DNA of 49,598 nucleotides from Pseudooceanicola sp. (lineage in GTDB: Bacteria; Pseudomonadota; Alphaproteobacteria; Rhodobacterales; Rhodobacteraceae): assembly GCA_002709085.1 (NCBI GenBank), contig PAPR01000032.1, positions 1-49,598 on the forward strand, in the 5' to 3' direction. Of this stretch, positions 30,410 through 31,808 are shown piece after piece; the stretch's first letter is position 1, and each line of letters starts with the position of its first letter. The notes beneath the pieces are model-generated. The model ran no database searches. It saw only the letters and a program-made list of their open reading frames with translations, and had not been told where the DNA came from. The position numbers and the translations under genes are program-made.

Positions 30410-30461
30410 GCGCCATGCTGGCGCACAAGTCTCCGCCACCTTGTCTAAAAAACGGATTCAG
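30410..30461 (+). promoter_or_regulatory. Candidate preQ1-I riboswitch upstream of yhhQ
   Basis: A GCGCCA/TGGCGC hairpin (30410-30424) abuts a small H-type pseudoknot. P1 is ACAAG (30425-30429) with CTTGT (30440-30444), closing a 10-nt loop. In the loop TCCG (30432-30435) can pair with CGGA (30453-30456) as P2. C30436 sits where the preQ1-pairing cytosine is expected. The connector CTAAAAAA (30445-30452) is A-rich as in the preQ1-I class. The P2 strand CGGA holds the GGA ribosome-binding site 7 nt before the ATG. The downstream gene encodes a queuosine-precursor transporter, a known target of this class. No database match was possible. Confidence 0.6.
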
Positions 30462-30463
30462 AT

Positions 30464-31084
30464 ATGACCCGCATTCTTCCCGGCGTGATTGCCATGGCCG
30501 CCGTCGTGGTGGCCTCTAACATCCTCGTCCAGTTCCTGTTCGGCCAATGGCTGACGTGGGGGGCGTTCACCTATCCCATCGCCTTTCTCGTCACCGACGT
30601 GATGAACCGCGTCTACGGCGTCAGCGCAGCCCGGCGTGTCGTTCTGACCGGTTTCGCCGTCGGAGTGGCCTGTTCCCTGATCGGAACCCAGATCATGGGC
30701 GAGTTCGGCCCGCTCGTCACCCTGCGGATCGCGGTCGGGTCGGGCCTGGCGTTCCTGATGGCGCAACTGCTTGACGTCGCGATTTTCGACCGGCTCAGGT
30801 CCGGCGCGTGGTGGCGGGCGCCGCTGGCCTCGACACTGATCGGATCGTCGCTGGACACGCTGGTGTTCTTTACTGTCGCCTTCTCCTCCGCCCTTGTTTT
30901 TCTGGAGCCGGGCAATGATGTGAGCTGGGCTAACGAAGTGCTCCCGCTGCTGGGGCTCGGGCCTGCGGCCCCGCTCTGGGTCTCGCTCGCGCTGGCCGAC
31001 TGGATGGTTAAATTGACCCTCGCACTGGTCGCTCTAGTACCGTTTCGCGTGGTCGTCAGAAAACTTTCACCAAACCTTGCGTGA
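30464..31084 (+). CDS. yhhQ: Queuosine-precursor transporter (VUT/YhhQ family)
   Basis: A 206-residue inner-membrane protein of the COG1738 family; E. coli YhhQ imports preQ0/preQ1. Six hydrophobic segments are visible. The family motif FPIAFLVTDVMN-like segment reads YPIAFLVTDVMNRVYG (about 37-52). The SLDTLVFFTVAF segment is in the second half. The 65-bp leader can fold as a preQ1-I-like pseudoknot, which would control translation by queuosine precursor level. Confidence 0.9.
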   Translation: MTRILPGVIAMAAVVVASNILVQFLFGQWLTWGAFTYPIAFLVTDVMNRVYGVSAARRVVLTGFAVGVACSLIGTQIMGEFGPLVTLRIAVGSGLAFLMAQLLDVAIFDRLRSGAWWRAPLASTLIGSSLDTLVFFTVAFSSALVFLEPGNDVSWANEVLPLLGLGPAAPLWVSLALADWMVKLTLALVALVPFRVVVRKLSPNLA

Positions 31085-31153: not shown

Positions 31154-31210
31154 GTGTCTATTGGGAAATTGGAGAGAGGTGTCGGAACAGTTTGGGGAGA
31201 AACCACCTGA
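31154..31210 (+). CDS. Possible 18-residue small ORF
   Basis: A GTG-initiated frame of 18 codons (MSIGKLERGVGTVWGETT) has a perfect AGGAGG ribosome-binding site (31141-31146) at a 7-nt spacing, in an otherwise gene-free gap between yhhQ and arfB. The AGGAGGTG can pair with CACCTCCT at 31262-31269, which would hide the ribosome-binding site. It could be a leader peptide, a small protein, or an accident inside a structured RNA. Confidence 0.4.
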   Translation: MSIGKLERGVGTVWGETT

Positions 31211-31279: not shown

Positions 31280-31310
31280 GGGCTATCCGATCCGATCGGA
31301 TAGCCCTTTT
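31280..31310 (+). terminator. Strong intrinsic terminator before arfB
   Basis: GGGCTATCCGAT and ATCGGATAGCCC form a 12-bp perfect stem with a CCG loop, followed by TTTT. It would end transcripts coming from yhhQ or from the small element 5' of it. Confidence 0.93.
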
Positions 31311-31394
31311 CCGTTGCCGGGTGCGAGGCGAGGTTCGCCTTTGTCATCGCCGGATTTGGATATACGTAATGCGCAGAGACCGACGGACAGGCCC

Positions 31395-31808
31395 ATGCTG
31401 CACATCACCGATCAGATCATCATTCAGGACTGGGAATTAACCGAACAGTTCACTCGCGCTTCTGGCCCCGGCGGGCAGAACGTCAACAAGGTTTCCTCTG
31501 CTGTCGAGCTCCGGTTCGAGGCCGACCGCTCCCCCTCCTTGCCCGACCCGGTGAAGCGCCGCCTGCGGCGGTTAGCGGGGCGCCGCTGGACCAAGGAAGG
31601 CGCGGTGGTGATCCAGGTCTCCGAAGAGCGCAGCCAGGCGCGCAACCGTGAGATCGCCCGCGACCGCCTGACCGCCCTGATCAAGTCCGCGCTGACCGCA
31701 CCGAAACGCCGCGTGCCGACGAAAGTGTCAAAGAACCAGAAGCGCAAGCGGGTCGAGGCGAAAAAGGCGCGCGCAGAGGTCAAGGAAGGACGCGGCTGGG
31801 AACGATAG
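31395..31808 (+). CDS. arfB: Alternative ribosome-rescue factor ArfB
   Basis: Peptidyl-tRNA hydrolase that frees ribosomes stalled without a stop codon. The 137-residue protein has the release-factor GGQ motif in SGPGGQNVNK (GGQ 26-28) and a basic C-terminal tail (KRKRVEAKKARAEVKEGRGW) that enters the empty mRNA channel. ATG 31395 follows GGACAG. It lacks the stop-codon recognition domain, as expected. It is isolated by a terminator upstream and an island downstream. Confidence 0.95.
   Translation: MLHITDQIIIQDWELTEQFTRASGPGGQNVNKVSSAVELRFEADRSPSLPDPVKRRLRRLAGRRWTKEGAVVIQVSEERSQARNREIARDRLTALIKSALTAPKRRVPTKVSKNQKRKRVEAKKARAEVKEGRGWER

Follow-up and report, generated by a model that had tools for sequence, protein, structure and literature searches.

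The leader of a yhhQ-type gene in Pseudooceanicola sp. very probably contains a translational-OFF class-I preQ1 riboswitch, in a variant specific to the Rhodobacteraceae that has a type II-like ligand pocket and carries the Shine-Dalgarno (SD) sequence within helix P2. This conclusion draws on the comparison of leader sequences across the family. In the window, that is, the whole stretch of DNA analyzed here (49,598 nucleotides), the element comprises the following parts, listed with the gene that it would regulate.

30410..30424, + strand: P0, a 5' hairpin GCGCCA-TGC-TGGCGC (arms 30410-30415 and 30419-30424), flush (0 nt) with the 5-bp P1
30425..30429, + strand: P1 5' strand ACAAG, with compensatory changes in relatives; G30429 is the pocket-floor G, equivalent to Tte G5
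30430..30439, + strand: hairpin loop TCTCCGCCAC, which holds the P2 5' strand TCCG at 30432-30435
30440..30444, + strand: P1 3' strand CTTGT, partner of ACAAG at 30425-30429
30445..30452, + strand: A-rich connector L3, CTAAAAAA; A30452 is equivalent to Tte A29
30453..30456, + strand: P2 3' strand CGGA with the SD motif GGA, partner of TCCG at 30432-30435
30464..31084, + strand: yhhQ-type queuosine precursor transporter gene (206 aa, assigned by family match), the predicted target

Helix P1 (ACAAG/CTTGT), the 10-nt loop, helix P2 (TCCG/CGGA) and the A-rich connector are found base for base at 30410-30463 as the original prediction had them, and so is the SD motif GGA inside the P2 strand CGGA, 7 nt before the ATG at 30464. 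The ligand-pairing cytosine, described there as central, is in fact the last base of the loop, C30439, and corresponds in position to C15 of Tte and C17 of Bsu. The protein encoded at 30464..31084 scores 92.3 bits against TIGR00697 (cut-off 50.95) and stays below the cut-off of PRK11212, which places it in the YhhQ family. The predicted fold shows the H-type pseudoknot, with P1, P2 and an A-rich L3, that characterizes preQ1 class-I; as befits this class, it precedes a gene predicted to serve in queuosine synthesis or uptake, here a member of the YhhQ family.

A generic preQ1-I-like shape arises on average at 1.0 site per strand in 49.6 kb of first-order Markov sequence, a rate that falls to 0.025 when an SD and a start codon are also required after the shape; the window holds one generic site on each strand. 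Since the shape alone is close to the level expected by chance, the case must rest on comparison among relatives.

From 475 loci encoding a relative, the best 80 YhhQ loci were picked by protein similarity alone. A template consisting of T(N7-10)C, the P1 3' strand, an A-run and CGG, composed after the leaders had been inspected, matched upstream of the gene in all 80, although one locus (L058) has a degenerate copy only. We also built a covariance model, R1, from 58 relatives, leaving out the window copy and the sequences with a long L3; altogether, 23 of 81 rows were dropped from this model and from the corresponding alignment, A2, for odd length, degeneracy or near-identity. R1 matches at E<=0.01 in 127 of 149 family genomes, yhhQ being present in 142 genomes, and a match adjoins 122 of the 142 family yhhQ genes, 4-49 nt before the first matched yhhQ codon. 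Among the 150 R1 matches listed, the best 120 all lie beside yhhQ and later ones mostly do not. The window copy (E 5e-8) is the sole match at E<=0.01 in its own genome, which is 77% complete. The 20 yhhQ genes without an adjacent R1 match include four whose leaders carry diverged copies (L083, L087, L090 and L096), P1 having changed to GAAG/CTTC in two of these; inspection of the leaders revealed no recognizable copy in 15 of the 142 genes, and one more gene lies at a contig end.

We considered a wider range within the Alphaproteobacteria and rejected it. At E<=1e-4, R1 matches in 8 of 289 alphaproteobacterial genomes; 4 of these are Rhodobacteraceae, and in the remaining 4 (G154, G328, G346 and G353) the match is not beside a yhhQ. 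Furthermore, the motif is absent from 20 of 20 leaders inspected among the 55 yhhQ-bearing genomes of other alphaproteobacterial families, these 20 being mostly the best protein matches. By its conservation across the sampled leaders, the predicted element is above chance.

The original prediction named covariation in P1 and P2 across orthologous leaders as one of its tests. Compensatory changes are indeed found, and are clearer in P1 than in P2. A2 aligns 58 sequences, of which 44 are distinct; standard pairs fill 98.0% of its pair cells, versus 7-48% when partners are slid. Two-sided changes occur in three of the eight pairs, namely two P1 pairs and the outer P2 pair, where shuffles average 0.6 and only 1 in 500 reaches as high a value; additional pair types give no significant signal, since 44 of 500 shuffles score as high. 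Sliding the partners by +1 gives more double-change cells than the true register (7 versus 5) and more pair types (5 versus 3), but leaves only 44% of cells paired.

A larger core set comprises 125 leaders, of which 124 were parsed, giving 81 distinct cores; L058 was dropped, as the anchor failed to parse it. In these 81 cores, the outermost pair of the 4-bp P1 is C-G in 74, G-C in 5, A-U in 1 and a mismatch in 1. The pair second from the loop is A-U in 76 and U-A in 5, and the third pair is A-U in 70, G-U in 10 and G-C in 1. The pair adjoining the loop is G-C in all cores, but this pair served as anchor. The outer P2 pair is U-A in 41 cores, C-G in 8, U-G in 4, G-U in 1 and A-U in 1, and a non-standard combination in 26. 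None of the three inner P2 pairs varies, so they give no evidence of covariation.

The lengths of P1 and L3 are also associated. Where a fifth Watson-Crick P1 pair (A-U, G-C or C-G) is present, the L3 tail is long (at least 8) in 10 of 14 distinct cores, and where it is absent, in 2 of 67, the tail being short in the other 65 (Fisher p 3e-8, ignoring kinship and with a length cut of 8 chosen after inspection of the data). This is what an H-type pseudoknot needs, as L3 must span the longer P1. When mapped on a tree of YhhQ from 81 loci, long tails require 7 changes of state; the coupling is not significant once kinship is accounted for, because only 2 independent changes, neither of them against the expected direction, fall on well-supported branches.

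The bases predicted to form the ligand pocket were assigned by position match to the Tte and Bsu sequences, with Tte numbers counted from the Tte sequence, and their roles were taken from the account of class-I pocket bases in a 2024 review (PMC11625349). In this scheme U30430, C30431, G30435 and C30439 are equivalent to U6, C7, G11 and C15, the pair G30429-C30440 to G5-C16, and A30452 and C30453 to A29 and C30. The cytosine before the P1 3' strand, which is the specificity base (Tte C15, Can C17), is C in all 81 rows of alignment A1 and forms part of the template matched by all 80 protein-selected loci. All 58 rows of A2 carry the same G5, T6 and C16 and the same A ahead of CGG. A further template combining pocket bases with pairing was matched by 119 of 125 family leaders and by 0 of 20 leaders from other families. 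This invariance is partly by construction, because the templates were composed after seeing the leaders and contain those bases; the pocket template is also narrow, since it finds Bsu but misses Tte and the E. coli leader. Judged by these position matches, the element conserves the preQ1-contacting bases known from solved class-I aptamers. A second match to the pocket template lies in the window around 41019 (- strand), likely by chance.

An upstream hairpin had been mentioned in the original prediction as a possible lineage feature. Wider sampling supports this well: in 108 of 124 family leaders, a fully paired hairpin (at least 4 bp, score at least 12) ends within 0-2 nt of the 4-bp P1. In 72% of the 124 leaders, a strong hairpin abuts the 4-bp P1 without a gap; between offsets -30 and -5 the figure is 2-14%, and one base further in it is 6%. 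The frequencies at offsets -1, -2 and -3 are also high (72, 59 and 38%), partly owing to sub-stems and to cases with a 5-bp P1, and 14-28% of leaders have a strong hairpin at offsets +9 to +11, within the core. We counted 82 distinct P0 stems, in which each of the first eight positions is filled by several kinds of pair; in the 4-bp class, 59 of 71 distinct stems are flush with P1. Compared with shuffles of each single leader, the signal is weaker: P0 reaches p<0.05 in only 29 of 81 cases and p<0.2 in 65 of 81, the window copy having p 0.005. Across the predicted helices, compensatory changes are present in P1, in the outer P2 pair and, most strongly, in P0.

In 107 distinct leaders, a set from which we left out those that lacked a strong P0, had little upstream sequence or repeated an upstream stretch, TTG-type boxes are most frequent 34-36 nt upstream of P0 and TA boxes 11-12 nt upstream of it. 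These promoter-like boxes suggest that the mRNA begins close to P0. A search of the region around the window copy found no sigma-70 consensus promoter, and for this reason we infer a 5'-terminal P0 there rather than reading it from a promoter. In six leaders (L019, L036, L057, L081, L103 and L114), the base between P0 and P1 is pairable in either helix, and from their sequences P0 and P1 could swap a pair.

The element shares traits with two of the described types. Like type II (Tte, Bsu), it is an H-type pseudoknot with a loop ending in AC; the 10-nt loop reads UC...AAC in Tte and UC...(N)AC here, and equivalents of G5-C16, C7, G11, A29 and C30 are present. P1, however, has 5-6 bp in type II and usually 4 bp in the Rhodobacteraceae (5 bp in the window copy). 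Also unlike type II, P2 has up to four Watson-Crick pairs that include the SD motif GGA, a P0 hairpin is set against P1, and the target gene is yhhQ. With type III, represented by E. coli yhhQ (PDB 8fza), it has in common the yhhQ target, the AC loop end, a pyrimidine-rich loop and an SD in P2. Type III as described has UU after P1 and an AAGG tail, whereas the window has UC and CGGA; the first two loop bases of the 81 distinct cores are UC in 60, UG in 10, UU in 9 and UA in 2, and the tail is CGGA or CGGG in most relatives, so that neither hallmark of type III is seen in the window copy. Loop length is 10 nt in 61 of the 81 distinct cores, as in Tte, in contrast to 9 nt in E. coli type III by our own reading. 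The two bases before the P1 3' strand are AC in 73 of 81 distinct cores, the window copy included (as in type II), and CC in 8; the UC of type I is not seen, although the template allowed only AC and CC. The predicted subtype is a mixed one, combining the AC of types II and III, UC in place of UU, a Tte-like 10-nt loop and a type III-like capture of the SD.

That COG1738/YhhQ genes are preQ1-I targets, as assumed in the original prediction, has a precedent in E. coli: type III preQ1-I riboswitches regulate yhhQ there, a crystal structure exists, and the type is described as almost exclusively gammaproteobacterial (PMC10622847). According to Zallot et al. 2017 (PMC5372724), different bacteria control yhhQ by preQ1 riboswitches of various classes. 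A 2013 survey whose genomes include 15 Rhodobacterales places preQ1 riboswitches largely in the Firmicutes and adds one or two lineages of Proteobacteria (PMC3766115). We found no description of this Rhodobacteraceae yhhQ-leader element in the open-access literature; the original survey defining the three subtypes may already include Rhodobacteraceae sequences.

Rfam represents the class by RF00522 (PreQ1). The search with this model that the original prediction proposed returned no match to the window at the gathering threshold or at E<=10, and none to 10 relatives; its sole match in the genome, at 16.2 bits, lies elsewhere. As a control, the E. coli yhhQ leader was likewise missed, so the failure is not informative; that the model detects neither the Rhodobacteraceae variant nor the E. 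coli leader suggests that RF00522 under-reports the class. Folded without pseudoknots, the leader is unremarkable (z -1.24), a shorter piece favoring P2-like pairing and a longer piece P0 and P1.

The distribution of queuosine genes was surveyed in 61 family genomes, including that of the window. QueA is found in 60 and Tgt in 60, Tgt missing only from the 77%-complete assembly that contains the window. QueF exceeds its cut-off in 11 of 61; QueC does so in 26, with more than 110 bits in 7 and partial matches of about 22-38 bits in the others. The genome of the window has QueA but gave no match to QueF or to QueC. According to Zallot et al. 2017 (PMC5372724), preQ1 is the one precursor that can still be salvaged when QueF is lacking. 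As QueA is kept while QueF and QueC are scarce, preQ1 import looks essential for queuosine, and most of the sampled Rhodobacteraceae appear, from their gene content, to be obligate preQ1 salvagers.

Several other readings of the leader may be weighed against these data. A pseudoknot shape arising by chance would be expected roughly once on each strand of a random sequence with the same composition; we reject this explanation, whose probability is negligible, as R1 matches stand beside 122 of the 142 orthologous genes. A conserved RNA structure could also set yhhQ translation without any small ligand, either as a protein-bound operator or as a constitutive pseudoknot masking the SD, and neither conservation nor covariation is enough to show that a ligand is bound. 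We nonetheless consider this very unlikely: the conserved unpaired bases coincide with those that contact the ligand in class I, and the family of the downstream gene imports that very ligand.

Only slightly more credible, and still improbable, is that the same pseudoknot and mechanism serve a different 7-deazaguanine, preQ0 or queuine. Substrates may differ between YhhQ subfamilies (PMC5372724), the Tte type II aptamer is reported to prefer preQ1 over preQ0 only 17-fold (PMC10622847), and the loop departs from the three consensus types described in PMC11625349. Yet preQ1 aptamers have the same ligand-contact bases. QueF is lacking in most of the 61 genomes, which should thus be unable to use preQ0, and retention of QueA should make queuine unneeded. 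The element might, finally, simply be the gammaproteobacterial type III yhhQ riboswitch, inherited or transferred, given the same gene, the AC loop end, the pyrimidine-rich loop and the SD in P2. The window copy lacks the UU and AAGG hallmarks (UC here and in 60 of 81 cores; its tail is CGGA), 61 of the 81 cores have a 10-nt loop, type III is described as almost exclusively gammaproteobacterial (PMC10622847), and none of the 20 leaders from other alphaproteobacterial families carries the motif. We hold this origin to be unlikely, if less so than the preceding readings; it overlaps with the explanation we favor, so that the probabilities given to the different readings do not sum to one.

The translational-OFF preQ1 riboswitch therefore remains our preferred reading. 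It has a gene of the YhhQ family downstream and a predicted pseudoknot kept before orthologues with compensatory changes, in agreement with the preQ1-I-type riboswitch first proposed. Sequence comparison shows P0 set against a short P1, and a P1 loop and 3' tail that can form the SD-holding P2. In the mechanism we envisage, preQ1 at high levels would pair with C30439, sit between P1 and P2 and lock the pseudoknot; the SD would then be hidden and the preQ1 importer would not be made. At low levels, P2 would open and the importer would be translated. P0, probably at the 5' end of the mRNA, would stack on P1 and offset its shortness. A preQ1-sensing OFF switch on the importer would constitute a natural feedback.

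We may further hypothesize, with a confidence somewhat above even, that the element represents a fourth class-I subtype, specific to the Rhodobacteraceae, in which a 5'-terminal P0 docks directly onto a 4-bp P1 and takes the place of its lower half; 5' end, aptamer and SD would then make up one continuous stack of about 45 nt. Such a switch would serve as the apparent feedback on an importer that is often the sole supply of preQ1. The favored reading would add a riboswitch to most sampled genomes of a large, mainly aquatic family where RF00522 reports none at yhhQ, and it points to control of a queuosine salvage gene where de novo preQ1 synthesis is mostly missing. The very short P1 with its natural 5' hairpin would also offer a system for studies of class-I aptamer folding.

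Sequence analysis downstream of yhhQ reveals other possible elements. A putative RNA at 31130-31307 matches RF01867 (Caulobacter sRNA CC2171) below the gathering score (33.2 bits, E 1.2e-5), and 8 of 10 relatives scanned have a match at the corresponding place (E 4.7e-5 to 0.24). It contains GAAAGGAGGTG near its start, which we take to be complementary to the 3' end of 16S rRNA, and CCACCTCC further on; a stem followed by TTTT can be seen by eye at 31280-31310 and was not flagged computationally. At 31154-31210, and at the same place in L002-L081, a start codon after the SD-like sequence of this RNA opens a short frame in 73 of 81 loci, with exactly 18 codons in 62 of 81. Variation is about equal at its three codon positions (0.23/0.28/0.23), and the enrichment of synonymous changes is only mild (0.356 versus 0.275), so that the case for a small protein is weak; an sRNA and a tiny protein are both possible. 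Further downstream, the frame 31314-31808 contains the motif SGPGGQNVNK, presumably typical of ArfB-type ribosome-rescue factors.
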